The position numbers were made by a program, and so were the translations under genes. Of a DNA stretch of 64,000 nucleotides, positions 17,925 to 35,124 are shown piece by piece. This stretch comes from a virus. The notes beneath the pieces were generated by a model, which made no database searches, was not told where the DNA came from, and saw nothing but the letters and a program-made list of their open reading frames with translations. How positions within the stretch are numbered: position 1 is the stretch's first letter; the number at the start of each line of letters is the position of its first letter. Location of the stretch: the IMG/VR virus record IMGVR_UViG_3300018424_000015, positions 1 through 64,000 of that record. The stretch is one strand, 5' to 3'.

Positions 17925-17932
17925 TATAAATA
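17925..17932 (+). promoter_or_regulatory. Perfect late promoter TATAAATA
   Basis: Exact T4 late consensus, followed by TGCAT and ATG at 17938. The upstream in-frame ATG at 17932 overlaps the motif and cannot be in the transcript, so 17938 is taken as the start. It drives the plus-strand half of the enzyme island. Confidence 0.75.
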
Positions 17933-17937
17933 TGCAT

Positions 17938-18516
17938 ATGAAACTCTTAAAAGACATTGGAATATTCGAGAGCGCAGTAACTGACGAAACCTGTGATAAA
18001 TTGATTGAATATTATGATCAACTAACAGATTTAGGTATGTCACATACTAGAATTAGCACTAACGATTCTCCCGGGCACCTAAAAAAGGACTCTGCTGCAT
18101 TTTTATTCGAACCTCCAGCACTTAATCTTTCCACAGAAAACCCTGCGGTTAGGGACAGTGTCCAGCAAATTATTTATTGTTGGGAACAATATATAGATCA
18201 TTACAGTGTATTATCATCTGTCGATCCACACAGAATTTACTATATGAAACTGCAAAAAACCCTACCAGGAGAAGGTTATCATGTATGGCATTACGAATCT
18301 GATAACCGAGAACGTTCAGGTAGAGTTGCTGCGTGGGGGTTATATCTTAACACTGTCGATGAGGGAGGAGAAACCGAATGGCTTTATCAGTCTGTAAGGG
18401 TTCCTGCTACAAAAGGTACATTAGCAATTTGGCCAGCCGGTTATACTCATACACATAGAGGTAATCCACCTCTAAGTGGTGAAAAGTATTTGTTAACAGG
18501 TTGGATCGAATACTAA
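17938..18516 (+). CDS. 2OG-Fe(II) oxygenase, prolyl-4-hydroxylase-like
   Basis: 192 residues. The C-terminal half has the double-stranded beta-helix signature: GEGYHVWHYE (H118, E120 as metal ligands, H-x-E rather than H-x-D), LYLNTVDEGGETEWLYQ, LAIWPAGYTHTHRGNPP (distal His at 171 or 173) and SGEKYLLTGWIEY with K183 as likely 2-oxoglutarate contact. Such enzymes use O2 and 2-oxoglutarate to hydroxylate peptidyl or free substrates; substrate unknown. First gene of the plus-strand island operon, with TAATG overlap to the next gene. Confidence 0.8.
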   Translation: MKLLKDIGIFESAVTDETCDKLIEYYDQLTDLGMSHTRISTNDSPGHLKKDSAAFLFEPPALNLSTENPAVRDSVQQIIYCWEQYIDHYSVLSSVDPHRIYYMKLQKTLPGEGYHVWHYESDNRERSGRVAAWGLYLNTVDEGGETEWLYQSVRVPATKGTLAIWPAGYTHTHRGNPPLSGEKYLLTGWIEY

Positions 18517-19142
18517 TGAACAAAATTAAACTTTTTCCTATAGAATTATTCGAATTTAAAAAAGAATTTGATTTTGATCAAATTATAGTAGACTGCGAAA
18601 AATATGCTGATTTGATTAAACATTCTGATGTTATTTCATCAATGAGAAATCTACACGATAAGCCTGAATTGAAAGAATTATTTGATTGGTTTAGACAGTG
18701 TTTAGATGAAATTAGATTGAAGCAAAAATATGACTGCGATAGTTTTGAAATAACAAGTAGTTGGTTTAACAGATCATTACCTCAATCTCAAATGTCATTG
18801 AATTTGCATAGACATAGTATGAGTTTCTTTAGTGCAGTTTTTTATCTTACTGAAGGATCTCCTACAGTGTTTGAAGATCCGGTAATACATCGTACACAAG
18901 CACAACTTGAAGTTTTAAGAGAACTAGATAAAGATTCAAGCCCGCATCAAAGTATAGAAGCAGAACCAGGAAAGTTAATTATTTTTCCTAGTTGGCTTTT
19001 TCACTTTAGTGCTCCACACATAGGCGATAAAGATCGTTACGTTATTAGTTTTAATACTATGCCGCAGGGGCTTGTAAATTATAAATTAGCAACAGATAGC
19101 GTTGCCTCTATTAAAATATTGAATAAGGATAAAGGATGGTAA
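18516..19142 (+). CDS. 2OG-Fe(II) oxygenase (H-x-H class)
   Basis: 208 residues from ATG 18516, which overlaps the preceding stop as TAATG; an earlier in-frame ATG lies inside the upstream gene. Motifs: LNLHRHSMSFFSAVFYL (H98, H100), a Pro-Gly turn PGKLIIFPSWLFHFSAP with distal H163, and DRYVISFN with R174. This is the pattern of the phage and marine bacterial putative 2OG-Fe(II) oxygenase family (TIGR02466-like), also seen at 28102 and 29525. Substrate unknown. It overlaps the first halogenase by 7 bases. Confidence 0.75.
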   Translation: MNKIKLFPIELFEFKKEFDFDQIIVDCEKYADLIKHSDVISSMRNLHDKPELKELFDWFRQCLDEIRLKQKYDCDSFEITSSWFNRSLPQSQMSLNLHRHSMSFFSAVFYLTEGSPTVFEDPVIHRTQAQLEVLRELDKDSSPHQSIEAEPGKLIIFPSWLFHFSAPHIGDKDRYVISFNTMPQGLVNYKLATDSVASIKILNKDKGW

Positions 19143-20620
19143 AAGACCTAATTGTGTTAGGCGGCGGCAATGCTGGTCTTATGACAGCATTATACCTTAA
19201 AGAAAGTATTCCTAATCTTAACCTAACTGTAATTAAATCATCCAAGATTGGAACTATCGGTGTTGGCGAAGGATCTACTGAACATTGGAAAATGTTTGCT
19301 TCTGCAACTAGAATTTCAATCGTAGATATGATAAGAGAGTGCGGTGCTACATTTAAGATAGGAATTAAGTTTGAAAATTGGCATGGTGATGGAACTAGTT
19401 ACTATCATAGTTTGCCTGAAGCTCTAGTAGACACAGATAGTTATACAGGTATTCCGTATGCTATGCTTAAACTTATTGCAGATGGTACAGGCACAGAAAA
19501 TCTGCACTGGCAATTGCCTATGGACGGATATATTAGAGAACCGTTAGATCAATACTATCAGTTTCATTTTGACAGCGAAAAATTAAACACGTATCTTCTA
19601 AAAAAGTGTGATGAAAGAGATATTAAAGTTGTTGATGCTGAGATCAATAATTGTGTATTAGATAACGAAGGGTTTATTTCCTCTATAGTCGATGACAATG
19701 GGCTATCATATTCAGCAGATTTCTTTATAGACAGCAGTGGATTTAAAAGAGTACTTGCATCAAGACTTGGAGCAGAATGGGTTGATTGGTCAGAGTACTT
19801 ACCTACAAACAGTGCGTTGGCTTTTCAAACACCATACGAAGAAAATATTCCTCCATATACACTATCTCGTTCTATGAATGCTGGATGGATGTGGAGAGCT
19901 CCTGTACAGGATAGATTCGGTAACGGATATGTTTATGATGATAGATTTATTTCAGAAGAAAATGCATTAAAAGAAGTACAACAATACTTTGATTTTCCTT
20001 TAAACATAGGACGTAGAATCAAATACACTTCAGGAAAAGTAAACAAAGCATGGATTAAAAATTGTGTTTGTATTGGATTAAGCAGTAACTTTGTTGAACC
20101 GTTAGAAGCAAGTAGCATATCAACTACTATACAACAGAGTAGACTACTAGCAAGTTCTCTTTGGAATTGGAATAGATCAGATCAAGGAACAATTAACAAA
20201 TATAATGAAATTGTTGATGACATGATGTTTAATATTTTAGACTTTATACAATTACATTATTATACTCAAAGACAAGACACTAAGTTTTGGAAGTGGTGTA
20301 AGAATGAAATGAAGATTACAGATTTTAATAAAGAGAATTTATCAAACTTTAAAAATAATTTTATTAGTCAAACATTATTACCAGAAGACGGAACGTTCGG
20401 AACCTATAGAATTTATGATTGTTTAAATTGGATTCAAGTAATGCACGGGTTGCGTATGTTTAATATAGAAAATATCAAGAAGATATATAATAGTCATACC
20501 CATTTAAAAAATATAGAATTAGAATTTTTGCAATTGCCAAGTCAACCAGATGAAACATGGATTACTTGTCGTGATGCTGTAAATTTAGTCAAGAACAGTG
20601 TAACGGAAATTAAGTTATGA
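19136..20620 (+). CDS. Flavin-dependent tryptophan-halogenase-type enzyme 1
   Basis: 494 residues. FAD-binding LGGGNAGLMTA (8-18); second flavin motif IGVGEGSTEHW (41-51); catalytic Lys K74 in ATFKIGIKF (PrnA K79 equivalent); halogenase motif GWMWRAP in place of GWxWxIP; NFVEPLEASSIST with the active-site Glu. Family enzymes use FADH2, O2 and halide to make HOX, which reaches Lys and halogenates tryptophan or other electron-rich substrates. Very like the next gene (tandem paralogue). No flavin reductase is visible nearby, so reduced flavin would come from the host. Confidence 0.88.
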   Translation: MVKDLIVLGGGNAGLMTALYLKESIPNLNLTVIKSSKIGTIGVGEGSTEHWKMFASATRISIVDMIRECGATFKIGIKFENWHGDGTSYYHSLPEALVDTDSYTGIPYAMLKLIADGTGTENLHWQLPMDGYIREPLDQYYQFHFDSEKLNTYLLKKCDERDIKVVDAEINNCVLDNEGFISSIVDDNGLSYSADFFIDSSGFKRVLASRLGAEWVDWSEYLPTNSALAFQTPYEENIPPYTLSRSMNAGWMWRAPVQDRFGNGYVYDDRFISEENALKEVQQYFDFPLNIGRRIKYTSGKVNKAWIKNCVCIGLSSNFVEPLEASSISTTIQQSRLLASSLWNWNRSDQGTINKYNEIVDDMMFNILDFIQLHYYTQRQDTKFWKWCKNEMKITDFNKENLSNFKNNFISQTLLPEDGTFGTYRIYDCLNWIQVMHGLRMFNIENIKKIYNSHTHLKNIELEFLQLPSQPDETWITCRDAVNLVKNSVTEIKL

Positions 20621-22125
20621 TTAGATCATTATGTGTACTAGGTGGAGGAACTGCTGGATTAATTTCTGCATTAATGATGCGTAAAGCATATCCTACTTTA
20701 AAAATTACAATATTAGAATCGTCTAAGATAGGTATTATTGGTGTAGGTGAAGGCAGTACAGAACACTGGAAACCTTTTATGGAATATATCGATGTTGATG
20801 TTCCTACAATTGTAAGAGAGTGCGGAAGTACATTTAAAATAGGTATTAAATTTACAAACTGGAACGGCGACGGAAAATCTTATTGGCATAGTTTAACAGA
20901 ACAGTATAACACTTTACATCAAGATAACGATGCCCCATTAAGTTGGTTTAGATACACAGGCGAGAATTGGGATCCTGAAGAAACTGCTTGGGATTTATCA
21001 AGAAATAGCAAACATCCTGAGCCTTTCCATGAAATTATTTCTCAATATCATTTTGATACATTTAAATTAAACAAATTTTTTCATAAGTTATGTGCAGAAA
21101 GAAACATAGAAGTTATTGACACAGATATATCTGATGTAATCGTTGATAAAGATGGCTATGCTGATTACTTAATAGATGAACACGGTAAACAATATAAAGC
21201 AGACTTTTACATTGATAGTAGCGGCTTCAGAAGAATTATAAGCAGTAAATTAGGTGCTAAATGGGTTGATAAACAAAAACAATTACCAATGAATAGTGCT
21301 ATTGCATTTCCAACAGGTTACACTGAAAACATTCCTTCCTATACTGAAGCAACAGCATTAAGTAGTGGATGGGTATGGAGAATTCCAACACAAGAAAGAT
21401 ATGGAAATGGTTATGTTTTTTGTGACAACTTTATCAATGAAACACAAGCATACGATGAAGTTTCAAAGCATTATAAAGAAAATTTAAAAATTACTCAAGA
21501 ATTAGAAATAGGTAGAAAAGTAAAATTTAGTGCAGGATATTTAGATAAATTCTGGATTAAAAACTGTTTAACAGTTGGGCTATCAGGTATGTTTGTTGAA
21601 CCATTAGAAGCAAGTAGTATAGGTTCTACAATACAAGAAATTAGATTAGCTATTCCTAGTTTCCATTACTGGACTCGAGGAGAAACAATAACAGAAAATG
21701 TTTTTAATGATAGAATGATTAGAATAGCTGAAAATATTGTAGACTTTATTCAATTACACTATATTACTAAACGCAATGATACTGAATTCTGGAAATGGGT
21801 CAACAAAGAAATTGTTTATACAGATTTTATTAGAGAAAATTTAGAATACTTTAAAAAGAATGGTGTTAATTCACAAATGTTCGGAATAGAACCATTGTAT
21901 ATGTTTTCTTATCTAAATTGGAGTCAAGTAATGCACGGTCTATCATTATTTGATTATGATGCTCGCAAGAAGTATTGGGAAGAATTTTGGAGTAAAGAAC
22001 ATTCAGAAAATTTGGATAATTTATTTAAACACGGCAATGCAGTAGATATGAGTACTGTTCGAACACATAGAGAAGCATTAAATATTTTAAAAGAAAGATA
22101 TTTGGAAGTACGTTATGAATTATAA
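20617..22125 (+). CDS. Flavin-dependent tryptophan-halogenase-type enzyme 2
   Basis: 502 residues, paralogue of the preceding gene (shared SSKIG-IIGVGEGSTEHWK, RECG-STFKIGIKF and NGYV blocks). GGGTAGLISA motif, K74 in STFKIGIKF, canonical GWVWRIPTQERYGNGYVF, FVEPLEASSIGST with Glu. All features for halide oxidation are present, and it is closer to the canonical motif than enzyme 1. ATGA overlap with the upstream gene. Substrate unknown. Confidence 0.9.
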   Translation: MIRSLCVLGGGTAGLISALMMRKAYPTLKITILESSKIGIIGVGEGSTEHWKPFMEYIDVDVPTIVRECGSTFKIGIKFTNWNGDGKSYWHSLTEQYNTLHQDNDAPLSWFRYTGENWDPEETAWDLSRNSKHPEPFHEIISQYHFDTFKLNKFFHKLCAERNIEVIDTDISDVIVDKDGYADYLIDEHGKQYKADFYIDSSGFRRIISSKLGAKWVDKQKQLPMNSAIAFPTGYTENIPSYTEATALSSGWVWRIPTQERYGNGYVFCDNFINETQAYDEVSKHYKENLKITQELEIGRKVKFSAGYLDKFWIKNCLTVGLSGMFVEPLEASSIGSTIQEIRLAIPSFHYWTRGETITENVFNDRMIRIAENIVDFIQLHYITKRNDTEFWKWVNKEIVYTDFIRENLEYFKKNGVNSQMFGIEPLYMFSYLNWSQVMHGLSLFDYDARKKYWEEFWSKEHSENLDNLFKHGNAVDMSTVRTHREALNILKERYLEVRYEL

Positions 22126-23653
22126 TGCAGTGATTTTAGGTGGCGGTTCCGCTGGCTGGTTAACAGCACTATGGGTTAAGAAATTTTGGCCTAATCTCAA
22201 AATTGCTATCGTTGAAAATCCTAAGAAACCTCCTATTATTGCAGGAGAAAGTGGAACGACTACGTTTGTAGATCTATTAAGAAAGATTGACATAGACAAA
22301 GATGATTTTGTTACAAAGGTGTTTGCTACACCTAAGTTAGGTGGAAAATTTACAGACTGGAACGGTGTAGGGACAGAGTTCATACATTGTTTACAAACAG
22401 ATTATGCACCTTGGTTAGATGGATGGAGCGATTATTACGATACTCCGGAGTCTCAGCCTTTACTGTTTGGTAATATGCTAAACATCATGCAACGAGAAAG
22501 AGAAAAAGATACATATCTAAAAACATTAATAGCAAATAATGTTCCTTTGTCAGATGCATTCTATGCAAATCAATTTATAAAAAATAATAAAGTTCCTTTC
22601 GGTTCTAGTACACACAACCTGCCTGTTATTCCTATGTGGCATTTTGAAAGTAGATCAGCTGCTGCTTATTTTAAAGAAATAGGACTATCAAGAGGAATAG
22701 AACTTATCGAAGGAGAGTTTCAAAGTGCAAAATTAAAAACTGACGGAAACTGTGAATCAATCTTACTAGATGAAAATAGAGAAATAACAGCAGATTGGTT
22801 TTTTGATTGTAGTGGTTTTGCTAGATTACTTTTAGAAAAAACCATGAAGGAACCTATTTTAGATTATACAGATTACTTTCCAGCTAGAGCAGTAGTTGCC
22901 TGGTGGGACGATCCTTGTTACTGTGTTACAACAAATGCTATTGCAATGAAGTATGGCTGGAGTTGGAACATTAATCTAAGACATAGAAGCGGAAACGGTT
23001 ATCTATATGATCCAGATCATTTAACATTAGATCAAGCAATACAAGAAGCGGAAAAACGATTTGATAAAAAAATAGAACCTATAGCAAACTTTAGTTTTCA
23101 ACCTGGAATGATGAGAAACACTTGGAAAAACAACGTCATAGCTATTGGTTTGAGCAACGGATTTTTAGAGCCGTTAGAAGCAAACGGGGTTGCTGTTATT
23201 ATAGAAAGCCTATATGCACTACAAGATCATTGGCACCCTGAAAGAAAAGGATATGTATCTAACAGATTTAATGACAGAGTTTGGTCAGTGAGTGAAGATA
23301 TTAAAGATTTCTTAGCGTTACATTATAGAGGAAAACGCAAAGACACTGAGTTTTGGCAAAGTCATCAAAACGATGAATTTAGAATTCCGGAAACTTTAAG
23401 ATTAAAATTAGAGGACTGGAAACAATGGTATTTGCACGGAGGTGCAGAACCACTTTATAACGGGTATAGTCCAACAGCATGGCTGATGGTATTACAAGCA
23501 CTACAGGTATATGATCATAGCATACTTTCAGCTAGATACGAAAAACTGCTAACAATATCCTCAAATGTGCTAAATAATAATATACAACGTTACAAACAGC
23601 TTGTTGCTCCATTTTTAACCATTGAGCAATGGGTGGATAATTATGCTAAATAG
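22115..23653 (+). CDS. Flavin-dependent halogenase-type enzyme 3, divergent
   Basis: 512 residues. LGGGSAGWLTALW (8-20), AGESGTTTF instead of GVGEST, K74 in ATPKLGGKFTDW, GWSWNINLRHRSGNGYLY in place of GWxWxIP (the Pro is replaced), and GFLEPLEANGVAV with Glu. It keeps the Lys and Glu but has changed around the halide/flavin tunnel, suggesting a different substrate or halide. Overlaps the preceding gene by 11 bases. A late motif overlaps its last codons and serves the next small gene. Confidence 0.85.
   Translation: MNYNAVILGGGSAGWLTALWVKKFWPNLKIAIVENPKKPPIIAGESGTTTFVDLLRKIDIDKDDFVTKVFATPKLGGKFTDWNGVGTEFIHCLQTDYAPWLDGWSDYYDTPESQPLLFGNMLNIMQREREKDTYLKTLIANNVPLSDAFYANQFIKNNKVPFGSSTHNLPVIPMWHFESRSAAAYFKEIGLSRGIELIEGEFQSAKLKTDGNCESILLDENREITADWFFDCSGFARLLLEKTMKEPILDYTDYFPARAVVAWWDDPCYCVTTNAIAMKYGWSWNINLRHRSGNGYLYDPDHLTLDQAIQEAEKRFDKKIEPIANFSFQPGMMRNTWKNNVIAIGLSNGFLEPLEANGVAVIIESLYALQDHWHPERKGYVSNRFNDRVWSVSEDIKDFLALHYRGKRKDTEFWQSHQNDEFRIPETLRLKLEDWKQWYLHGGAEPLYNGYSPTAWLMVLQALQVYDHSILSARYEKLLTISSNVLNNNIQRYKQLVAPFLTIEQWVDNYAK
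23646..23652 (+). promoter_or_regulatory. Late promoter motif CTAAATA
   Basis: CTAAATA at the end of halogenase 3. A transcript starting near 23658 would carry the AAGGAGT ribosome site and the ATG at 23674. This gives the small terminal gene its own late promoter. Confidence 0.6.
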
Positions 23654-23673
23654 TATGCAAGGAGTTAATTGTA

Positions 23674-23832
23674 ATGAAAACTTATAAGATTATTTTAAGA
23701 GTGGCACACGGAGTACTCGAAGTTAGAGAAGACACTTGTCAGGCAAGAAACGCTGAAGAAGCACAAAAAATCTTCGAAGAAAGACACGGTGTAGAACTAA
23801 TTGTTGCTGGTCCTTTGCCAGTTAGCAATTAA
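23674..23832 (+). CDS. 52-residue protein at the operon junction
   Basis: Begins MKTYKIILRVAHGVLEVRED, then TCQARNAEEAQKIFEERHG and ELIVAGPLPVSN. Good AAGGAG site 8 bases upstream and its own CTAAATA motif. Predicted beta-hairpin, helix, beta strand. It contains no Trp, so it is not an obvious halogenase substrate. It overlaps the convergent oxygenase gene by 4 bases. Function unknown. Confidence 0.7.
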   Translation: MKTYKIILRVAHGVLEVREDTCQARNAEEAQKIFEERHGVELIVAGPLPVSN

Positions 23833-24455
23833 CGATCAAACCCCATTTCTTTTCTAGCAGATTCAAGCTCGTCTTTAATAGCTTGATTAACAAATTCCGA
23901 AGGTAAACCTAAACAAGGCCTAGTATCCCATTTTAAATGTGCATACGGGCCTTTTTCATCTACATACTGTAAAAATGCCTGTATTACTTTTTGTCCAGTA
24001 TACGGCTCTCTCCAATGTTCGTGTCTACGACCACTGTAGATAACTATGTCTCCAACATCTAAGATTATTTCGTGAATGTTGCCTTCTTCATTTTTAATGT
24101 ATAACGGCCAGTCTTGATCTTCTTTTGTAATAGAAACACTTACAGATATTTCAGAACTGCTACGATCAAAGTGCTTTCCTAGTTCAGATCCATTGTAATA
24201 TATGCGAGCATAACTGTAAACAGGTACTAATTTCTTTCCTACTTTTTCACTTACTAATGGTGTAAGTTTTAGCATTAATGCTTCAAACATTAAAGGAGCA
24301 TATCTTGCAAATGTATTTTCACACATATCTGATAAGTTTGCACCAGGATATAATACTTGACATACATCGTTTTGCATTTCATATTCTAATGCCATAAACT
24401 CGCAAAGCTCTTTGCTTACGGCATTTTTAACAATAATATAATCTTCTTTCATCAT
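23829..24455 (-). CDS. 2OG-Fe(II) oxygenase, prolyl-4-hydroxylase-like
   Basis: 208 residues. ARIYYNGSELGKHFDRSS supplies H95 and D97; VGDIVIYSGRRHEHWRE the distal His (145 or 147); GQKVIQAFLQYV the 2-oxoglutarate-binding Lys K156. The layout matches prolyl-4-hydroxylase-like phage and bacterial enzymes. Last gene of the 13-gene minus-strand island operon; ATGA overlap with the gene before it and convergent to the 52-residue gene. Substrate unknown. Confidence 0.82.
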   Translation of the reverse strand: MMKEDYIIVKNAVSKELCEFMALEYEMQNDVCQVLYPGANLSDMCENTFARYAPLMFEALMLKLTPLVSEKVGKKLVPVYSYARIYYNGSELGKHFDRSSSEISVSVSITKEDQDWPLYIKNEEGNIHEIILDVGDIVIYSGRRHEHWREPYTGQKVIQAFLQYVDEKGPYAHLKWDTRPCLGLPSEFVNQAIKDELESARKEMGFDR

Positions 24456-25003
24456 ACTAACGGAATCATACTCATGTTACCAAAAGGTCTTTCTACATAG
24501 TTTCTAATAAACTCATTATTAGGAATAGTATGTATATCAAAACCTAGTGTAGTTCTATAACCTTCGTAAGGTTCTAGTACTTCTACTTTGTGTTTTACAA
24601 ATCCAGGACCAAAATATATTTGTCCGGGTTTATTTTCAATAGTCCAATTTTCAAACACTGTGTTTGTTTTTTTAGGATCTATTGATATATAGCCATGATA
24701 ATCAAACTCATGTCCGTGCCAATCTAATACTTCATCGTGTTTATGATAGTTGATCCAAGATTGCAACCATAAAGGTCGATCATCGCCAAGTTCTTTTCTT
24801 ACAAACTCTCTTAATTCAACATATAAAGAATACCATGCTGTACTAGGAGCAGTTAGTGTAAACACATTATACTTGTTATAGGACCATGTACTATCTTTGT
24901 CAGGAAAGACAGTTTCAAATACCTTATGTGCTTCATTAAGGCTGTGAACTATTTCGTCGTAGTTTTCTAAAATAGTTTTAGATGTTATGAGTTTGTATTC
25001 CAT
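24452..25003 (-). CDS. 2OG-Fe(II) oxygenase-like protein (H-x-H-x-E)
   Basis: 183 residues. LDWHGHEFDYHGYISID (H96, H98 with E99) resembles the metal site of the H-x-H oxygenases here, followed by PGQIYFGPGFVKHKV (distal H138) and GYRTTLGFD (R150). Short for the family but with the complete beta-helix pattern. Overlaps the preceding gene by 19 bases and the next by 4. Confidence in fold moderate to good; substrate unknown. Confidence 0.65.
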   Translation of the reverse strand: MEYKLITSKTILENYDEIVHSLNEAHKVFETVFPDKDSTWSYNKYNVFTLTAPSTAWYSLYVELREFVRKELGDDRPLWLQSWINYHKHDEVLDWHGHEFDYHGYISIDPKKTNTVFENWTIENKPGQIYFGPGFVKHKVEVLEPYEGYRTTLGFDIHTIPNNEFIRNYVERPFGNMSMIPLV

Positions 25004-25605
25004 ATGTTTCTCAAATTCATGTTAATCACCATTCTAAATTTAGAATTTCTTGCCCATGAAGAACTATGATAATACTTTCCAGGAAATATTAGTATTCTTC
25101 CTTTTTTAGGTGTTACTCTTTGCTTAACTGTAAAATTATTTTCTTTTATTCTAATAATATCATCTTGACCGCTACTGTATGTGTCGTTGGTTTCGTTAAA
25201 AATAACAGTGTCGCCATCGCTATCATTGACATAATATATTGCATTCCAGTGTTCAAAAAAACTATCTATATGCGGCATATGCCAGTCTAATTTACTTACT
25301 TTGTTAGGTAATGTTAAGTTTGCTCGCATTCTAATTAACTGATTAAAAGAAACATTGGCTTGACTTGTGATACTTAACACTAAAGGATACATTACATTGA
25401 AATGCATACTTTTAGGTTCATTATGTTCATAGAAAAAATGATTAAACCCTGCATGATTGTCTTCTTGTGTTTGAAAATCTTCATCGCCTGATACCATTGA
25501 TTGATTGAATACCCAACCAAAATCCCAACCAGTCATTAAATTTAAAATGTGGTCTTGATAGTCTTTAGGTATAATATTATCAATTACAATTATATCATTA
25601 GTCAT
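24985..25605 (-). CDS. 2OG-Fe(II) oxygenase
   Basis: 206 residues. LDWHMPHID (H112, D114), AIYYVNDSDGDTVIFNE, GRILIFPGKYYHSSS (H180) and FRMVINMN (R191). The D-G-D-T-V-I-F block and spacing are shared with the gene at 26816, so the two are paralogues. Related proteins occur widely in marine phages as unassigned oxygenases. Overlaps the preceding gene by 8 bases. Substrate unknown. Confidence 0.78.
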   Translation of the reverse strand: MTNDIIVIDNIIPKDYQDHILNLMTGWDFGWVFNQSMVSGDEDFQTQEDNHAGFNHFFYEHNEPKSMHFNVMYPLVLSITSQANVSFNQLIRMRANLTLPNKVSKLDWHMPHIDSFFEHWNAIYYVNDSDGDTVIFNETNDTYSSGQDDIIRIKENNFTVKQRVTPKKGRILIFPGKYYHSSSWARNSKFRMVINMNLRNIWNTNS

Positions 25606-26119
25606 GTACTGCTACTCCATAGAAGTTTATAAACAAACTACTATCTTCTTTAGTTTCTCCGTAAAATTTTTCAATCTTATGAGGTTTTTCAGGTTCAAAT
25701 ATAACACATCTATTAAACACATTTTCTACTTTAATAGAAGGAACAATAGCATTTGATACTTTACTATAGAATGTTATTCCTGAATTTTCAGGAGGATTAG
25801 GATTTAAAAATATTGTTCCTGCTATATTGTACATTCTATTTAATTCAACTATTTCTGATGTATGTTTACTATCAACTAAATTAAAATCACAATGCACAAA
25901 ATTAAATCTATATTTGTTAGGCACATGAACTATTAGTTTTGCAAGAATTGTATCAAACAAATTAAAGTTTATTTCGTCAAGAGTTTTTGAACGCAATCCG
26001 TAATACGCATCATTATCTTGTTCTAAATAATCTAATTTTAAAGCACTGTGTCTAACAAGTGTAGGTGCTTCAAAAAAGTCATCTATAACTTTTACAGGTT
26101 GTTTAACGTCTTTGATCAT
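25598..26119 (-). CDS. Degenerate oxygenase-like paralogue, probable pseudoenzyme
   Basis: 173 residues, aligned by eye with its upstream neighbour through N-I-A-G-x-I-F/Y-L-N and N-R-C-V/I-x-F ... H-x-x-E-x-F-x-G. The distal His is kept (H147), but the H-x-D of the neighbour (H121, D123) corresponds to V91 and L93, and the Arg (R225) to about S161. A stray H76-C-D78 exists one strand earlier but does not align. It is probably catalytically dead and may partner the active neighbour, with which it shares an ATGA overlap. Confidence 0.6.
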   Translation of the reverse strand: MIKDVKQPVKVIDDFFEAPTLVRHSALKLDYLEQDNDAYYGLRSKTLDEINFNLFDTILAKLIVHVPNKYRFNFVHCDFNLVDSKHTSEIVELNRMYNIAGTIFLNPNPPENSGITFYSKVSNAIVPSIKVENVFNRCVIFEPEKPHKIEKFYGETKEDSSLFINFYGVAVHD

Positions 26120-26823
26120 ATTGCTTTAACAAAAAACACTTGTGTTAATCGGTTAGTGTCTTTACTGTTCCCAAAAAATTCTTCTGCACTGTGCCATGCT
26201 CGTGTGTCAAACATTATACATCTATTGTAGACACTCTCCATAGTTACTGTTTTTTTAAAAAGTTTTGTTTGTTCTTCTCTGTATTTTTGATATGGTTTTC
26301 TTTCTTCTTCAGTATCAGATAATACATCTTTCATAAACTTGTCTGCATATTCATCTAAATTTAGATTATCTTTATCTTCATACACAACAGTTCCACTTCC
26401 TAGTGGAGCTTCTTTGTTAAGATAAATTACTCCTGCAATATTAAGTTTTGGATCATCGTCGTGTACCCAACCTCTTCCATATGTTTCATCTACCATGTGG
26501 AATGCTGTTTGAAATTCAGAGAAAGATCTATAACCATAATCTCTAATCCAGAAAAGTAATTTTTTTCCGAACATTTCAAACAACGGTAAATTATTTTCAT
26601 GAAATAACTTAGTTCTAAGACCCGGCCAACTACCTCGCTTTCCTTTAAAAAATTCTTGATCTAGTGCAAATTCTCTCCATAGATCTGGCTCGTCGTAGAA
26701 GTTATCTATAATAGTTGTTGGAAAGTAAGGATACAGATTTCTATCTTTAATTTGATTATTAGAGATATACTGACTAGAAGCCTTATCGCTTTCTATCAAA
26801 CTATTAATATAATCGTTATCCAT
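26116..26823 (-). CDS. 2OG-Fe(II) oxygenase-like protein
   Basis: 235 residues. GWVHDDDPKLNIAGVIYLN provides H121 and D123; CIMFDTRAWHSAEEFFG the distal H211; NRLTQVFF the R225. A charged 45-residue insertion (about 148-192, rich in D/E/K) sits between the strands. Similar in look to the DUF6445-like family found with tryptophan halogenases in Caulobacterales and related bacteria (from memory). Overlaps the preceding gene by 8 bases. Confidence 0.7.
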   Translation of the reverse strand: MDNDYINSLIESDKASSQYISNNQIKDRNLYPYFPTTIIDNFYDEPDLWREFALDQEFFKGKRGSWPGLRTKLFHENNLPLFEMFGKKLLFWIRDYGYRSFSEFQTAFHMVDETYGRGWVHDDDPKLNIAGVIYLNKEAPLGSGTVVYEDKDNLNLDEYADKFMKDVLSDTEEERKPYQKYREEQTKLFKKTVTMESVYNRCIMFDTRAWHSAEEFFGNSKDTNRLTQVFFVKAI

Positions 26824-27421
26824 TCTTTTGACCTGCTGTAAAATTCATAGTAAGTACAATTCTTTGGTTATGCATCTTAGGACAAGTACTTGCATGAAAG
26901 TGCCAACCATTGAATACAAGAACTTTTCCTTGAAGAGGCTCGCTTTTAAATTTACGATGATACTTTTGTCCTGTTAATAAAGGTTGATCTTTCTCGTGAA
27001 AAATTACAGTATCACCATCGCTTGAATTAACATAATAACACGCTGTAAAATGTTCCTGTTCATAATCTCTATGCGGAGTATTATATTCATAAGGTAAATG
27101 AGGGAAACTATACTTTGTGTTTAACAAAAATCCTAATCTCATTCTAAGTAATGTATGTAATTCTAATCCTGCTTTTTCACAAGTTGCATTTAACAATGGC
27201 ATAAAAAAATCTAAGTGAGGATTATGTTGATTATTAGGATGATATATTAAATGAGCAAAACTAGGTGTTGAATGTCTTGGATCTTGATCTAAACGATCTT
27301 CATATGTAGTATCGTTCATAAAATGCCAGTCAAACTCAATATTAGTAACTTTATTTAAAATTTCCATAGAGTAATTGTAATCAATTACATCATATATTTC
27401 AATTGGTTCAAAATCAGTCAT
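26816..27421 (-). CDS. 2OG-Fe(II) oxygenase
   Basis: 201 residues from ATG 27421, chosen because it gives an 8-base overlap with the upstream gene; a longer in-frame start at 27463 would lie deep inside that gene. Motifs: NTPHRDYE (H117, D119), YYVNSSDGDTVIFHE, KVLVFNGWHFHAS (H174 or H176) and QRIVLTMN (R187). Paralogue of the gene at 24985. Substrate unknown. Confidence 0.78.
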   Translation of the reverse strand: MTDFEPIEIYDVIDYNYSMEILNKVTNIEFDWHFMNDTTYEDRLDQDPRHSTPSFAHLIYHPNNQHNPHLDFFMPLLNATCEKAGLELHTLLRMRLGFLLNTKYSFPHLPYEYNTPHRDYEQEHFTACYYVNSSDGDTVIFHEKDQPLLTGQKYHRKFKSEPLQGKVLVFNGWHFHASTCPKMHNQRIVLTMNFTAGQKNG

Positions 27422-28130
27422 GTTGTATCCTATAAAAATTTCTATCAATACTTCCTGTTGCATCTTCAGTTGGAAGTTTCTGCCAACAAGGAATACTCAT
27501 AGACAATCGCTTTCCTTTAGGATATGCACAATGATACATTCTTGAAGGAATATATAAAACGTCTCCTGGTTTAAGTGTAACGTCTATTGCTAGTTCTAAA
27601 TCATCTTCTTTAAGTTTATTGTTTAGCAAACCAGTTCTATGCATATAAGTTATTCTATTATTAAAAATTTTCCAGTGTGTTTCGCCTTCAACTTGAATAA
27701 TAAAATTAGCAGGATAGTCTTCATGTATATTAAAACTTTTTGCATCTTGTAAACCAAAGTAAACATGAATAGCTGAATTTACACTGTACATACTTTCAAA
27801 CATTGCAAGAAGTTCCATAGTTTTTTTACTATAGAATGCATAATCTAAATTAATTAAACCGCAACCTTCGTGTAGTTTGTCAAATAAAAATTGTTTATCT
27901 TGAACAGGCCTATTCCATATCCACGATTTATTGTATGCTGGTACTTCTATTTTAGTACCTGTAGGATCAATAACTTCAAAATTATACTGTGCTGAATTAT
28001 TCATAGTCCATTCAACATCGTCCCACGTACAATATATACTAGGATCAGAAATAAGATTTTCCCAATAATGCGGAGCATCATTGATCATTAAATCTGTTTC
28101 TTTAAGAATTCTTTGGGAAATATCTGTCAT
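27414..28130 (-). CDS. JmjC/cupin-type Fe(II) oxygenase
   Basis: 238 residues from ATG 28130, which has AGGA six bases upstream; in-frame ATGs at 28133 and 28154 are possible. SFNIHEDYPANFIIQVEG supplies H136 and D138, then THWKIF with K154, and LKPGDVLYIPSRMYHCAYP with distal H200. This is the cupin_4/JmjC hydroxylase layout, whose members hydroxylate ribosomal proteins or other protein side chains. Cupin-like proteins also accompany tryptophan halogenases in Caulobacter-type loci. Overlaps the upstream gene by 29 bases. Confidence 0.78.
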   Translation of the reverse strand: MTDISQRILKETDLMINDAPHYWENLISDPSIYCTWDDVEWTMNNSAQYNFEVIDPTGTKIEVPAYNKSWIWNRPVQDKQFLFDKLHEGCGLINLDYAFYSKKTMELLAMFESMYSVNSAIHVYFGLQDAKSFNIHEDYPANFIIQVEGETHWKIFNNRITYMHRTGLLNNKLKEDDLELAIDVTLKPGDVLYIPSRMYHCAYPKGKRLSMSIPCWQKLPTEDATGSIDRNFYRIQHD

Positions 28131-28728
28131 CATCTGTCCTAAAATATTTAACATTCCAAGAAATAGAAATTCTATCTTCGTCGGTACTATTTCTTTCTAC
28201 ACCGTGCGGTAAGTTTCCAGGGAATATTAAAATTTTTCCTGTTTCTGCTTCATATCTTATTGCACTTGCACTTATTGCTGTGTGTTGCTCAATCGGTGCT
28301 CTCGAAGCAACTATAAAATCTGCATTGTAATCTTTATAAAAAATTATTCCACCTTGGTCTGGAGTTGCTTTAACATAAAAGGCTCCACTAATAAAAGAAT
28401 TATCGTGGATATGAACACTATTTGTATCGCCTTTTTTATTAATATTGGCCCAAAGATTTTCAATTACAATAAATCCTGCATCTTGATTATAACCATAATC
28501 AATTATGCATCGTTGCGCTTGTTCTAATATTAAATCTTCTAAAGGTTTCATTTCAGGATAAGTTCCTGGACGGAAATCCATTGACTGCCAGCCGCCTTGA
28601 TTACTTAAATATCTACCTTTTGTATCTTGTTCGTATAATTTATAAACAAGTTTTTCAATACTATCAGTATCAATATTAGTTGTTGTCCACCATACTGGAG
28701 TAGGAAAGAAATGATCAAAGTGCCACAT
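28102..28728 (-). CDS. 2OG-Fe(II) oxygenase (H-x-H class)
   Basis: 208 residues. The TIGR02466-type signature is clear: SVHIHDNSFISGAFYVKA (H106, H108, D109), GGIIFYKDY, GKILIFPGNLPHGVERN (H175) and DRISISWNVK (R186). Family members are common in T4-like marine phages, function unknown. The ATG overlaps the stop of the upstream gene by one base (TAATG). Confidence 0.82.
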   Translation of the reverse strand: MWHFDHFFPTPVWWTTTNIDTDSIEKLVYKLYEQDTKGRYLSNQGGWQSMDFRPGTYPEMKPLEDLILEQAQRCIIDYGYNQDAGFIVIENLWANINKKGDTNSVHIHDNSFISGAFYVKATPDQGGIIFYKDYNADFIVASRAPIEQHTAISASAIRYEAETGKILIFPGNLPHGVERNSTDEDRISISWNVKYFRTDDDRYFPKNS

Positions 28729-29528
28729 TATCTAATAACCTCCCCAAACGTTTTAGGTGGAGATAAATGTGAAAATGCAAATGCATGACTCCATCTAAAG
28801 TCTACGTTTTCAGAAATCACTGCACTGTGACAAATATTAGCATGATACATAGTCATTTTACCTTTAATACTTGGTGCTTGTCCTTTATATTCAAACCCCC
28901 ATTCTGCTAATTCTTCGTCTTTCATATTAAACCAGCTCGGTGCTCTAAAAGGTTTTTCAGCCATTGCTCTCCATTTTTCAAACATAGGATGTGTTTGATC
29001 TGTTTGAAAATCATATACACTATCCTTTAATACTCCATTATACTTATAAAGTTTTGTACTGCTATCTTTAATATCGTGATCTGTAAACCAAAGGTTAGCA
29101 ACTAATCCTTCAGGGTAATCAACGTGAGGTATTCTCCAACATGAAATAGGTCGTGCTCTATCTTTGTAATAAACATTCCCCCATTCATGTATCTGTGGTT
29201 CAAATATATCAGGATTAGAATGCTGAATATAGAAATCTCTAATTAACACACATATATCTTGATAAACCCAATTAGGAAGATGTACAGTGTCAAAAGGATT
29301 AGGATCAAAATTATCAGGATGATTATTATCTTTTACAATAGGAAAACATTTAATTAACTCTTGAAAAGTTTCAAAACCTTCTTCTGTTTTAAAAGGATGA
29401 TCAGCAATCCAAAACCCTATTCCGTCACCTAGGTCTGTGTATTCAGCATTTAATTCGTAAGGTTTTTTAAATTTAAAAACTTTATGAAAGTTATTTGCGT
29501 CAGGATTACAAACTTTAAAATCTATCAT
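28728..29528 (-). CDS. 2OG-Fe(II) oxygenase-like protein
   Basis: 266 residues. WRIPHVDYPEGLVANLWFTDHD gives H135 and D137; MTMYHANICHSAVIS gives distal H234; VDFRWSHAFAF gives R245. An insertion of about 60 residues (roughly 155-215) lies between the two halves and contains PFRAPSWFNMKDEE. It overlaps the preceding gene by 4 bases (ATGA). Family not closely recognised; metal site well supported. Confidence 0.65.
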   Translation of the reverse strand: MIDFKVCNPDANNFHKVFKFKKPYELNAEYTDLGDGIGFWIADHPFKTEEGFETFQELIKCFPIVKDNNHPDNFDPNPFDTVHLPNWVYQDICVLIRDFYIQHSNPDIFEPQIHEWGNVYYKDRARPISCWRIPHVDYPEGLVANLWFTDHDIKDSSTKLYKYNGVLKDSVYDFQTDQTHPMFEKWRAMAEKPFRAPSWFNMKDEELAEWGFEYKGQAPSIKGKMTMYHANICHSAVISENVDFRWSHAFAFSHLSPPKTFGEVIR

Positions 29529-30106
29529 TTTATATTAAACGTCATTACTATTCTTTCTTCGTTGGTATTATTAGGCTGTACTCTATGCTTTAACCAACCA
29601 GGAAATATTAATACATCATTAGTTTCAACAGGCAATTCGGTATAGTTCCTTTCTCCGATAATAGGAAAAGAGGTTTTATGATATTCCAGAGGATCTCTAA
29701 ATTCGATATTACCGGAGTTAGGAGGACATTTAACATAACAACTTGCTACCCAAGTAGCAAAGTTATGTTGATGTTCTAGTGTATAACCTGTTTTAAAGTG
29801 TCTATTAAACCAAGAACCTTGCACCATAGACTGTCTTTCATAGAAGTTATGGTCGTCTTTTATTTGTGTTAACCTATCCCCGAGCCAGGCTTGAAAGTCG
29901 GAGAGTTCCATCCAAGTGTGAGGTTGCAACATTTCATCATTAGAAACAGTAGATATTGCATCTCCTGCTTCTAAACTAGAATTCTGATCAACGTGTGATA
30001 TTGCTTCTTCTATTCTTGGACGTAGTGATTCGTAATTAAACTCGTAACTATACTTGTAAATGAATGGCAAGAATAAATGAACACCGCCATTATTCACTGC
30101 TTCCAT
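29525..30106 (-). CDS. 2OG-Fe(II) oxygenase (H-x-H class)
   Basis: 193 residues from ATG 30106; an upstream in-frame ATG at 30127 is also possible. TLEHQHNFATWVASCYVKCP (H112, H114), NIEFRDP, DVLIFPGWLKHRVQPNN (H174), ERIVMTFNIK (R185). Same family as the genes at 18516 and 28102. The start lies 17 bases inside the upstream gene. Substrate unknown. Confidence 0.8.
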   Translation of the reverse strand: MEAVNNGGVHLFLPFIYKYSYEFNYESLRPRIEEAISHVDQNSSLEAGDAISTVSNDEMLQPHTWMELSDFQAWLGDRLTQIKDDHNFYERQSMVQGSWFNRHFKTGYTLEHQHNFATWVASCYVKCPPNSGNIEFRDPLEYHKTSFPIIGERNYTELPVETNDVLIFPGWLKHRVQPNNTNEERIVMTFNIK

Positions 30107-30350
30107 CGTTTTGACCCTGTTCCTCAAGCAAATCGACAGCTAATTGTATACCCATCATTGTACCTTCCATCTTTAGTACATCTTGAGACAGTTCTTGTCT
30201 TTTGCTAAAGTCAATTGATGTAATGCCGTATGGATTCAATTTAACGTTTGCAAAATCTTCTTCTAGTTTTGCGAGTTCTGCTTCTGCTGCTGTTTTTTGA
30301 ATTTTTACATTCTCAATAGCACCTAACAGTTTTCCTTTTACTTTTTCCAT
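30090..30350 (-). CDS. Small coiled-coil protein, unknown
   Basis: 86 residues, almost all helical. Residues about 10-33 (AIENVKIQKTAAEAELAKLEE) and 50-78 form likely coiled coils separated by a short NPYGITS turn. AGGAT ribosome site before the ATG. Lies between the DUF-like gene and the oxygenases. It could be an adaptor or scaffold; no family recognised. Confidence 0.6.
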   Translation of the reverse strand: MEKVKGKLLGAIENVKIQKTAAEAELAKLEEDFANVKLNPYGITSIDFSKRQELSQDVLKMEGTMMGIQLAVDLLEEQGQNDGSSE

Positions 30351-30355
30351 TGTTA

Positions 30356-31138
30356 TTATCCTCTGTGTTTATACTTAGTTAGAATTTTAGAAGCTCTTTG
30401 CAGTCTTGAAGACAGTTGGTCCGTTTCTAAAAATATAGAATTGGCTGCAAAGTTATATGCTCTTTCTTTTTGGTAATCTAACTCATCTGCATTTTCAATA
30501 CTAACATCAAACGAATTATATTGCAAGTCTTTTCTTTTGATTGGTATGTATTGGCAAAGTGGAGTTCCTGCTCGAATTAACGTTTCTCCATTTAGTTGTT
30601 TCCAAAATAATTGCACGTTAACAACGTGTGAATATCTTGGATCTAATATTCCAATAGCTGCTTGGAATCTGCTTTCATTGTTATATGTTACAGGTAATTG
30701 CATAAAAACAATGTCATCACTACATTCAACTCTCCACGGAGTTTCAACTTTAATTACTGTTCTTAGTGTATCTTCTGCACTGTCTAAAATAGGATCAGTT
30801 TGTGACGAATCGTGTGAAGCAATATAAGATTCAGTTCCAGGCATTCCTTTGTCAAATTGAATTGGTTCTCTCCAACTAAAACTTGCTCCGTCACCAGTAG
30901 TTTGAATTACAAAATCTGCTGGAGCCGTAATAATCCATCCTGTTGAAGCAATTTTTAAAATGCCCGGGCATTGCTTAACTGGTCTTACATTTGGCGGAGT
31001 TTCTGATTTGGTAAAAGGTCTCTTTAATTCTACACTTCTAATAGGAGGATATAAATCCATAACACCTGGAAATGTAGAATAAAATCTTATATAAGGCTTC
31101 TTATCAAAATTAAACCAATTTTTAATCTTGTTAAGCAT
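30356..31138 (-). CDS. Unknown protein of the halogenase operon (DUF6065-like look)
   Basis: 260 residues from ATG 31138, just after the halogenase 4 stop; a longer in-frame start at 31171 lies inside that gene. Features: CPGILKIASTGWIITAPADF (about 57-76), then SRFQAAIGILDPRYSHVVNVQLFW (about 153-176) and AGTPLCQYIPIKR (about 187-199). It reads as a beta-barrel enzyme or binding protein. The pattern recalls DUF6065, a family found near secondary-metabolite genes, but I hold this weakly. Function unknown. Confidence 0.45.
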   Translation of the reverse strand: MLNKIKNWFNFDKKPYIRFYSTFPGVMDLYPPIRSVELKRPFTKSETPPNVRPVKQCPGILKIASTGWIITAPADFVIQTTGDGASFSWREPIQFDKGMPGTESYIASHDSSQTDPILDSAEDTLRTVIKVETPWRVECSDDIVFMQLPVTYNNESRFQAAIGILDPRYSHVVNVQLFWKQLNGETLIRAGTPLCQYIPIKRKDLQYNSFDVSIENADELDYQKERAYNFAANSIFLETDQLSSRLQRASKILTKYKHRG

Positions 31139-31139
31139 A

Positions 31140-32762
31140 CTACTCACTATCGTATTCGTCTTTTCCGCCATATATATTTTCTTTTAGGTACTCATAATGT
31201 GTTGGTAACTGAGCAATATAATCTGTTATGAATTGTTTATATTCTTCATGTCTGCGTCTAGTATAACCAATTTGTTCTTCGCGAAGTTCTTGGTCCATTC
31301 TATCGCCTGTATTATAAACTAGTTCTGGAGTTCCCATTGGTCTAATTCCCATACCTGCGGCAATAAACATATTACCGGTATAATCTAATACATAAGAACT
31401 ATTACCCATAATTGCATCCATCATATGAGAATACTGTGTGTGTCGAAGTAAATACTCTCCTTGCATCTCAGGATCATAATCATTTATTTCTGTACACCAA
31501 TTCCAGTAAGGTGTATCTTGACGCATACTCCATGCATAGTGTTGTGACACAAAATCTCTAAACTTAGTAACATCGTAATCACAAGCCATATTAAAGCCTT
31601 CTCTTTCCATACGTGTTACATAACCTTCTCTTCTGTTTAATGCTTCAACTAGTTTAACAATGTTTTCGTGTGTTGTCAATAACCCAGTAGACTCAAGAGG
31701 TTCTACAAAGCCATAACTTAATCCAACACCAACAACATTTCCTTTCCATGCTCTATGACGTTTACCGTGTTTAATTTTAATCATAAAAGGTTCAGCATTT
31801 TCAGCAACTTCAGGACTATGATATTTTGCAAGGTAATCTATAAATTCTTTTTTAGCATCTTCTTCTGTTGTGAATCTAGTAGAGAAAACATAACCAGTTC
31901 CTATTCTATTCCACAATGGTATTGTCCAAACCCAGCCATTATCTAATGCATGACAATCAGTAACATTATGCATTTGTGTTTTTCTGTCCGTATAAGGAAT
32001 TCTAACTGCCCATGCTCTATCGTTTGCTAGATGTTTGTTGAAAGGAATAAAGTGAGATCCCATCCAATTTTCTAACATTATAGATCTAAATCCAGTACAG
32101 TCAATCCATAGATCTGATTCTAATATAGTTCCATCTTCGCAAAACACTTGTTGAATATATGTATGTGTGTTATCTTTTTTGTGAGAATGAATATCTGCTT
32201 TAATGTGTTTAACGCCATTTGGCAAAGCAATATTATCTCTTAGATATTGACCAAACAAACTAGCATCCATATGATATGCTGTGTCGTACTTAAAATCAAA
32301 ATGTCTAATAATTTTATCTTCATTTCTAGTTTGTTTATTATACTTTGCTAGTAGTGTATTACCAGTAGCAAAGAATTCAGCGAAAGATTCAGGACCAAAT
32401 TCTTTAGGATAAAGTGCAGAAAGATAAATCCAATCACTGATTCCATTAGGTTTATCTGTAAAGTCTAAGCCGTTACTAAAAGGATATTCAAAAAATGTAC
32501 CGTCTTTTTCTCTAAAGTTTGTAAATCTAATAGAATTTTTGTATGTAGCATTACAAGCTGCCATCCAATCTTCATCTTTTAAATCTAATAAGCGTAAAAA
32601 TTTATTAATGTGTCCAAGTGTGCTTTCTCCGACACCTACTGGCCCTACGAACGGAGATTCTACCAGTGTTATATCTAGATGTGGGCAAAGTTTTGAAAGT
32701 GCTGCCGCTGTCATCCAACCACTAGATCCGCCGCCTACAATGGTAACTGTTTTATATTTCAT
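31140..32762 (-). CDS. Flavin-dependent tryptophan-halogenase-type enzyme 4
   Basis: 540 residues, the most canonical of the four. VGGGSSGWMTAAAL (9-22), GVGESTLGHI (43-52), catalytic K75 in ATYKNSIRF, GWVWTIPLWNRIGTGYVF, FVEPLESTGLL with Glu. The C-terminal region (about 430-540) is longer than in the others. A related enzyme, VirX1 of cyanophage Syn10, is an experimentally shown viral halogenase. First gene of the 13-gene minus-strand operon, with AAGGAT ribosome site and upstream CTAAATA. Confidence 0.92.
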   Translation of the reverse strand: MKYKTVTIVGGGSSGWMTAAALSKLCPHLDITLVESPFVGPVGVGESTLGHINKFLRLLDLKDEDWMAACNATYKNSIRFTNFREKDGTFFEYPFSNGLDFTDKPNGISDWIYLSALYPKEFGPESFAEFFATGNTLLAKYNKQTRNEDKIIRHFDFKYDTAYHMDASLFGQYLRDNIALPNGVKHIKADIHSHKKDNTHTYIQQVFCEDGTILESDLWIDCTGFRSIMLENWMGSHFIPFNKHLANDRAWAVRIPYTDRKTQMHNVTDCHALDNGWVWTIPLWNRIGTGYVFSTRFTTEEDAKKEFIDYLAKYHSPEVAENAEPFMIKIKHGKRHRAWKGNVVGVGLSYGFVEPLESTGLLTTHENIVKLVEALNRREGYVTRMEREGFNMACDYDVTKFRDFVSQHYAWSMRQDTPYWNWCTEINDYDPEMQGEYLLRHTQYSHMMDAIMGNSSYVLDYTGNMFIAAGMGIRPMGTPELVYNTGDRMDQELREEQIGYTRRRHEEYKQFITDYIAQLPTHYEYLKENIYGGKDEYDSE

Positions 32763-32796: not shown

Positions 32797-32820
32797 CTGA
32801 AGTTTTATGGTGTGATCAGT

Positions 32821-32851
32821 AAAAAAGGCACTTAAAGAAAGTGCCTTTTTA
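32821..32851 (-). terminator. Rho-independent terminator after 32872-33372 gene
   Basis: Stem GGCACTT (32827-32833) with AAGTGCC (32839-32845), five-base loop, A run before and T run after. It separates the fibre-side gene from the halogenase operon and could act in both directions. Confidence 0.9.
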
Positions 32852-32871
32852 CCGTAATAGGGAGTGAGTAA

Positions 32872-33372: not shown

Positions 33373-33376
33373 AATG

Positions 33377-34231: not shown

Positions 34232-34247
34232 CTTTATTTCCTACTCA

Positions 34248-34254
34248 TATTTAT
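34248..34254 (-). promoter_or_regulatory. Late-like motif ATAAATA
   Basis: ATAAATA overlapping the stop region of copy B, 16 bases before the copy A start, with an AGGA ribosome site between. Confidence 0.45.
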
Positions 34255-35111: not shown

Positions 35112-35124
35112 CTATTTCTTGCTC

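Follow-up and report, generated by a model that had tools for sequence, protein, structure and literature searches.

A well-studied viral halogenase is VirX1, a flavin-dependent halogenase (FDH) of cyanophage Syn10 (PDB 6qgm). Its active site is large and accessible and accepts bulky substrates, and no natural pathway has been assigned to it (PMC8407142). SrpI, an FDH from a gene cluster for ribosomally synthesized and post-translationally modified peptides (RiPPs), brominates the C-terminal Trp of a proteusin precursor; in the proteusin leader, a rigid folded portion is accompanied by a proline-rich stretch and by a short disordered helix to which SrpI binds (PMC10858898). Cyanophage studies list prnA and 2-oxoglutarate (2OG) oxygenase genes separately and suggest for them roles in antibiotic protection, DNA repair, or nitrogen signalling (PMC3037559, PMC9964418, PMC2984593, PMC10452541, PMC9146016); the relevant passages of PMC9146016 and PMC2984593 propose no virion role for halogenase or oxygenase. 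Here we analyse a 64,000-nucleotide stretch of viral DNA (positions 1 to 64,000 of IMG/VR record IMGVR_UViG_3300018424_000015, hereafter the window), in which four FDHs and twelve oxygenase-like proteins are encoded beside fibre genes and next to P, a small protein with a Trp-bearing C-terminal tail. On balance, we narrowly favour reading the island as a protein-modification cassette, expressed late and linked to the fibre, whose VirX1-type FDH halogenates the tail of P.

The island consists of two convergent operons separated by 176 bp. The plus-strand operon (17932-23653) encodes a 2OG-Oxy_3 protein, a 2OG-Oxy_5 protein, FDH1, FDH2, and FDH3; in the minus-strand operon (32762 to 23829), the genes for FDH4, a phrog_7084 protein (C), and an 86-aa protein (D) are joined by those for ten oxygenase-like proteins, nine of the 2OG family and one of the JmjC_2 type. 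The open reading frames (ORFs) are intact and the genes mostly overlap or abut. Families were assigned through Pfam and PHROG profile searches; an NCBIfam search with ten cassette proteins gave no useful name. These results bear out an initial annotation of the window in several respects: its four tryptophan-halogenase-type enzymes are four intact FDHs (Pfam Trp_halogenase), its twelve Fe(II) oxygenase-like proteins are eleven 2OG-family members (including K, whose metal site is lost) and one JmjC_2 protein, its two convergent operons have mostly overlapping genes, and its location between fibre genes is correct, with adhesin-like genes and a giant fibre gene upstream. The limits it set, 17938-32762, omit the upstream continuation of the cassette, i.e., P and three Gly-rich adhesin-like genes (32872-35976). 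The 'pathway' it described is unsupported: among the cassette genes, Pfam and PHROG recognized no partners of the FDHs for the biosynthesis of small molecules. Pfam also detected no YcaO cyclodehydratase among these genes.

P lies directly upstream of FDH4, outside the limits initially annotated, and its Trp tail is the best substrate lead:

32872-33372, minus strand: P, a fibre-linked accessory protein (phrog_1787) and candidate halogenase substrate, with a folded N-terminal part, helices, a Pro-rich linker, and the Trp tail
32875-33021, minus strand: C-terminal extension of P, residues 118-166, with the core PAWRRYRGW at 32890-32916

Nine of the 166 residues of P are Trp (5.4%, the highest proportion among the proteins compared). 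The conserved C-terminal tail reads EP(S)xDKPxxxSTxELPAWKRYPGWxGY, and in 36 aligned P proteins W155 is 97% and W161 94% conserved, compared with a mean of 41% for the preceding linker. P matched only phrog_1787 and phrog_9114 in PHROG, no family in Pfam, and nothing in a PDB sequence search. AlphaFold2 predicts a beta N-terminal part, three helices, a linker, a short helix at residues 127-136, and an extended tail. Foldseek searches matched this model to Syn9 Gp40 and to short proteins of cyanophages, with weak matches to proteins of tail fibre assembly. The C-terminal peptide of Syn9 gp40 is VPCWKRYPGWSGYIPPEDSV.

We scanned 2.9 million viral contigs blindly for any DNA able to encode PAWx(R/S)YxGW. 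Among the 70 stretches recovered, 56 are C-termini of P that end 3-13 residues before the stop, and the other 14 are unrelated frames. An FDH was present in the same fetched stretch for 52 of the 56, and the remaining four stand on contigs that also carry an FDH (L124, L160, and L183 share contigs with the FDH loci L038, L060, and L018, respectively; in L128 the FDH begins 98 bp after P). Searches with the P domain minus its tail, combined with earlier loci, yielded 126 distinct P and P-like proteins. An FDH lies within 1.2 kb downstream of 85 of these, and every one of the 85 ends in a Trp-containing tail no shorter than 25 aa; PxW is present in 80 of them, and in 47 of the 51 clusters into which their tails fall. 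By comparison, where 2 kb or more shows no FDH (26 P-like proteins), the median tail length is 7 aa and PxW is never present. All 20 of the phage records with P (50,697 records in total) also carry an FDH. Where the FDHs are approximately 38-47% identical, the tail differs too but keeps a Trp, usually as P[ACS]W (S-RIM44, DPSWNYLP; S-WAM1, IPAWLS; P-TIM40, MAWEPYPN). At three loci, a Cys-bearing protein of 409-441 aa (L069 510-1739, L070 8736-9983, and L075 8100-9425) is encoded between a P without a PxW tail and an FDH.

The halogenases themselves are encoded as follows:

19136-20620, plus strand: FDH1, flavin-dependent halogenase (Pfam 6.6e-101; catalytic Lys and Glu 100% conserved)
20617-22125, plus strand: FDH2, flavin-dependent halogenase (Pfam 1.1e-91)
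22115-23653, plus strand: FDH3, divergent flavin-dependent halogenase with WSWNIN replacing WxWxIP (Pfam 3.9e-84; PDB relatives)
31140-32762, minus strand: FDH4, ortholog of VirX1 (640 bits to VirX1 6qgm; within the VirX1 clade of the tree)

Against Pfam Trp_halogenase (PF04820), the four proteins score 283-347 bits (E = 4e-84 to 3e-103; cut-off 21 bits), and each carries the GxGxxG flavin motif together with the catalytic Lys and the EPLE Glu. In conservation alignments, which comprised 9-80 relatives, this Lys and Glu are 100% conserved across all four FDH groups. The WxWxIP motif is present in FDH2 and FDH4, and reads WMWRAP in FDH1 and WSWNIN in FDH3. Because FDH1 and FDH2 are 45% identical and the remaining pairs 25-29%, the four FDHs are, by sequence comparison, not recent copies of one another. 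FDH4 is 60% identical to its S-CREM1 counterpart and 53% identical to those of Syn9 and Syn10; in the tree, the P-linked FDHs, including VirX1, form one supported group of 13 sequences. A fifth halogenase was seen on a 265-kb contig (L197 4301-5869), far from the cassette and with unknown genes beside it.

The order fibre, adhesins, P, VirX1-type FDH, C, and 2OG/JmjC set recurs in isolated cyanophages and about 70 viral contigs. It is the same in S-CREM1, Syn9, S-RIM44, and Sf-FR1, and occurs with variations in P-TIM40, P-RSM6, S-SZBM1, S-WAM1, and Sf-FP1; a sequence search showed that Syn10 carries the same cassette proteins. Three scans of viral contigs gave 108 loci, and the recurring gene map is 'fibre. 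t c c c P FDH4 C d o F o J l k k l M N'. For the 77 VirX1-type FDH loci with upstream sequence, P lies within three genes in 73, a fibre, adhesin, or tail gene within eight genes in 73, and C immediately downstream of the FDH in 58. Of 63 loci with at least three downstream genes visible, 53 have at least three 2OG genes and 49 have a JmjC gene. Since this order recurs in isolates and viral contigs, the island of the window is one large member of a widespread cassette. The combination is therefore not peculiar to this phage, as had been supposed, given that the operon is present in public cyanophage genomes such as that of Syn9. Co-occurrence of the families in other marine phages, proposed in the initial annotation as a check, was found in both isolated cyanophages and viral contigs; absence or degeneracy in relatives, which it had named as a refutation, was not observed, the genes being intact and conserved at 40-80% identity. 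That all phage FDHs are fibre-linked is ruled out by those of Syn1, S-PM2, S-SSM7, S-H38, S-B64, and S-MbCM6.

The major capsid protein of the window (56045-57385) is of a jumbo T4-like type, closest to those of Sinorhizobium phage Phosso, Vibrio phage 2.275.O, and Serratia phage BF (66-70%). Five other cassette contigs share this capsid type (77-100%), and a sixth, Syn9-like, gives a weak match (37%). The cassette is, on these comparisons, common to Kyanoviridae and a jumbo-phage lineage, and the capsid protein places the window in the latter. Because the capsid is jumbo-type, yet FDH4 and C are close to those of S-CREM1 and Syn9 (50% and 47% identity, respectively, for C), the cassette and adhesins have probably moved together between distant phages. 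Such joint movement would fit a function at the fibre better than adaptation to the metabolism of one host. The photosystem gene psbA is absent from eight related contigs.

The oxygenase-like proteins are as follows:

17932-18516, plus strand: A, 2OG-Fe(II) oxygenase (Oxy_3, phrog_61), the start of which may be the ATG at 17938 (Pfam 9.5e-9; PHROG; H120xE122..H175..K185 invariant)
18501-19142, plus strand: B, 2OG-FeII_Oxy_5 protein (phrog_81), HxH..H..R (Pfam, PHROG, alignment)
23829-24455, minus strand: N, 2OG-type protein (phrog_2954, labelled 'ferrochelatase'; PHROG 1.5e-52; H95xD97..H147 invariant)
24452-25003, minus strand: M, 2OG-type protein (phrog_2696), HxH..H..R (PHROG 5.8e-39; profile match to the Oxy_5 alignment, E 1.7e-4, probability 49%)
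24985-25605, minus strand: L, 2OG-Fe(II) protein (phrog_274), HxD..H..R (Pfam, PHROG, alignment)
25598-26119, minus strand: K, DUF6445-type 2OG-fold protein, metal site lost (Pfam DUF6445 1.8e-5; no HxD in 10 orthologs)
26116-26823, minus strand: J, DUF6445 2OG-type protein (phrog_1644), HxD..H..R (Pfam 2.1e-16)
26816-27463, minus strand: I, 2OG-Fe(II) protein (phrog_274), HxD..H..R (Pfam, PHROG, alignment)
27414-28154, minus strand: H, JmjC_2 (PF08007) hydroxylase (Pfam 2.7e-18; H144xD146..H208 invariant)
28102-28728, minus strand: G, 2OG-FeII_Oxy_5 protein, HxH..H..R (Pfam 1.5e-22; PDB 3bvc and 2rg4, both uncharacterised)
28728-29528, minus strand: F, 2OG-type protein (phrog_3234/1644), HxD..H..R (PHROG 3.8e-19)
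29525-30127, minus strand: E, 2OG-FeII_Oxy_5 protein, HxH..H..R (Pfam 1.6e-16)

Alignments show invariant metal-site residues in the JmjC protein and in the ten 2OG proteins other than K: the motif is HxD..H in the JmjC protein and in F, I, J, L, and N, whereas A has HxE..H..K and B, E, G, and M have HxH..H..R. As profile alignment places the second His of the H-x-H motif (B, M, G, and E) at the Asp position, a three-His iron site in the 2OG-FeII_Oxy_5 proteins is suggested. K is perhaps a pseudoenzyme subunit. Iron halogenases, with an HxG/A site, are ruled out among the 2OG proteins, in which the second ligand position is D, E, or H. The JmjC_2 family includes the protein hydroxylases YcfD, MINA53, and NO66, and JmjC_2 relatives of known function act on proteins. 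The PHROG labels 'DNA endonuclease V' (phrog_274), 'ferrochelatase' (phrog_2954), and 'minor coat protein' (phrog_1644) are applied to proteins with 2OG-oxygenase signatures and look like propagated misannotations.

Promoter and terminator-like signals were located at three positions:

17925-17932, plus strand: T4-type late promoter TATAAATA, before the plus-strand operon
33378-33385, minus strand: T4-type late promoter TATAAATA, before P
32817-32854, minus strand: predicted hairpin with a T-rich 3' arm between P and FDH4, terminator-like (-19.2 kcal/mol, z -6.0)

The window contains only two exact matches to TATAAATA, both at the cassette, against 7.5 expected by shuffling; these agree with the late promoters reported in the initial annotation. 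Cyanophage late promoters are given as NATAAATA (PMC2984593). Late expression of the cassette is likely, as judged from the promoter matches before the plus-strand operon and P. The predicted hairpin may end the P transcript; CTAAATA occurs 34 bases upstream of the FDH4 start, behind this strong hairpin.

The remaining cassette proteins and the fibre-tip neighbours are encoded on the same strand as P:

30356-31171, minus strand: C, phrog_7084, DUF6065-like, predicted dUTPase-type fold (PHROG 2.3e-54; AlphaFold2 pLDDT 88.7)
30090-30350, minus strand: D, conserved 86-aa cassette protein (67 matches among the fetched loci and the window, in the same position)
33377-34231, minus strand: c1, Gly-rich fibre-tip/adhesin-like protein (phrog_863, Gly_rich_2)
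34254-35111, minus strand: c2, Gly-rich fibre-tip/adhesin-like protein
35125-35976, minus strand: c3, Gly-rich fibre-tip/adhesin-like protein
36795-44342, minus strand: giant tail fibre upstream of the cassette, 2515 aa, with seven CBM_5_12 modules

DUF6065 is matched by six of 30 C orthologs (best 0.0028), and Foldseek matched the C model to dUTPases (target TM 0.54-0.73 in significant matches). Across 84,980 genomes of bacteria and archaea, C was matched twice, by a cyanophage-type contig filed under Nonlabens and by a short Prochlorococcus single-cell contig, and no bacterial origin was found. The former (L332, NZ_RMVE01000006.1, filed under Nonlabens xiamenensis, Bacteroidota) is probably a contaminant, since its cassette is cyanophage-type and nearly identical to that of P-TIM40. 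Weak matches to C were also seen in the Halorubrum viruses HRTV-15 and HRTV-2 (H183 and H184). The adhesins carry His/Asn/Arg/Pro-rich loops, and a PDB sequence search with one of them gave no match. The seven CBM_5_12 carbohydrate-binding modules of the giant fibre are rich in Trp and Tyr and represent another possible target. A subtilase-family (S8) protein (14232-16304) adjoins a tail fibre gene.

In the mechanism that we propose, P would be produced alongside the fibre-tip proteins, and FDH4, using oxygen, halide, and reduced flavin supplied by the cell, would halogenate W155 and/or W161 of its tail. We propose this step because P shares the layout of the SrpI substrate and the VirX1 active site is large and accessible, taking bulky substrates as expected of a peptide halogenase. 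The JmjC_2 and 2OG-Fe(II) proteins would add hydroxyl groups to side chains, be it in P, in the Gly-rich adhesins, or in the giant fibre, and C, with its predicted dUTPase-type fold, might serve as a scaffold, which is a guess. The product would be a chemically tuned fibre tip, with effects on receptor binding or particle stability. That the tail is the substrate is our inference, and so are the choice of halide and residue, what the oxygenases act on, the part played by C, the benefit, and the function of FDH1-3. A broader proposal, which we rate as slightly less likely than not, is that VirX1-type phage halogenases may be dedicated virion-protein halogenases that, with the JmjC/2OG hydroxylases, put halogenated and hydroxylated residues on the receptor-binding fibre tip. 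To our knowledge, enzymatic decoration of a phage's own receptor-binding machinery has not been described. Modification of the virion surface was among the options named in the initial annotation and is the one we retain.

The analysis shows intact enzymes, a conserved gene order, fibre linkage, and covariation of Trp tail and FDH. Several points nevertheless weigh against halogenation of the P tail. The proposal is built from sequence and predicted structure, and the tail, with an AlphaFold2 pLDDT of 70-87, is not clearly disordered. The covariation comes mostly from one clade, since neighbours co-inherit and the FDH-less tailless P-like proteins are more distant homologs. In L069, L070, and L075, an FDH stands within 2 kb (1.3-1.8 kb, with genes between) of a P without a PxW tail; the FDHs of Syn1 and the five other phages named with it are not beside P or fibre-tip genes; and FDH1-3 were seen mainly in jumbo-type contigs, with no partner identified. 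The tail Trp could also be structural or a docking site for the enzymes. Extending the latter point, the tail may be a tag for docking or assembly through which the enzymes are recruited to the fibre, with the modified residues elsewhere, e.g., in the Gly-rich adhesin loops or the CBM repeats of the giant fibre. This would still be virion modification, and we consider it unlikely, though worth serious attention: P weakly resembles tail-fibre assembly proteins, the adhesin loops and the seven CBM_5_12 modules with their Trp are available, and there are more oxygenases than likely sites in one tail, but the best conserved tail residues are Trp, the residue modified by the FDH family, and the PxW and GW positions are both kept.

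The other explanations move the chemistry away from the virion. In one, small molecules of the infected cell, such as free tryptophan or pigments, are the substrates of the FDHs and oxygenases, in auxiliary metabolism or antibiotic-like protection. This has precedent in that PF04820 was first known from small-molecule halogenases, VirX1 accepts many small aromatics in vitro (PMC8407142), and such a role is proposed for cyanophages (PMC9964418, PMC2984593, PMC10452541). We nonetheless find it improbable given the late promoters, the fixed place behind fibre-tip genes in two phage lineages, the strict partner P with its Trp tail, the JmjC_2 member, and an island in which no biosynthetic genes were seen. 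We regard modification of the host envelope or of a surface glycan, whether at lysis or for superinfection exclusion, as very improbable; some phage FDHs do lie near nucleotide-sugar genes (S-SSM7), but no glycan or membrane genes were seen in the cassette, in which transport signals were not searched for. Least credible of all is a service of the 2OG proteins in DNA repair or 2-oxoglutarate/nitrogen signalling. This was proposed in PMC3037559, and PMC9146016 places 2OG genes near uvsX/uvsY/uvsW in other phages; here, by contrast, the set sits with fibre genes and FDHs under late-type promoters, and the metal site is HxH in four members and lost in a fifth.

Halogenation of the P tail, if confirmed, would shift this gene set from 'auxiliary metabolism' to virion maturation. 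It would show that a phage can give its receptor-binding tip chemistry that the 20 amino acids do not offer, and would supply natural protein-halogenation tags. The tail offers a concrete, testable natural target for VirX1, a well-studied halogenase without a known natural substrate. For the many 2OG oxygenases of cyanophages, several incompatible explanations have been given so far.

Among described systems, SrpI/SrpE offers a close parallel to P and FDH4: P is likewise a small protein adjoining a halogenase, with a conserved C-terminal Trp behind a folded domain, a Pro-rich linker, and a short helix. It differs in that P is not a proteusin (there is no nitrile-hydratase-like leader), no leader-core cleavage site was seen, the YcaO partner of that system has no equivalent in the cassette, and P is linked to fibre genes. 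QhpG and LodB are flavoprotein relatives that act on protein-bound residues; FDH3 gives only weak scores against the two models, well short of the curated thresholds. H, a phage member, shares the PF08007 domain and HxD..H site of the JmjC_2 ribosomal oxygenases (YcfD/ROXA, MINA53, and NO66), a group characterized by hydroxylation of ribosomal proteins. VirX1, of which FDH4 is an ortholog (53% identity, 640 bits), has been reported on test substrates only, and the window encodes three more FDHs besides FDH4 and a more extensive set of oxygenases. The operons of Syn9 (gp40-gp54) and S-CREM1 (ORFs 68-80), annotated piecemeal or as auxiliary metabolic genes, have the gene order and families of the window, with Syn9 gp42 as the VirX1 counterpart in the same P-FDH-C-2OG arrangement. 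The operon itself is thus already in public cyanophage genomes; what is new here is the Trp tail of P and its tie to the FDH, and in the window the whole stands in the genomic context of a jumbo phage, together with an additional, convergent operon of FDHs.

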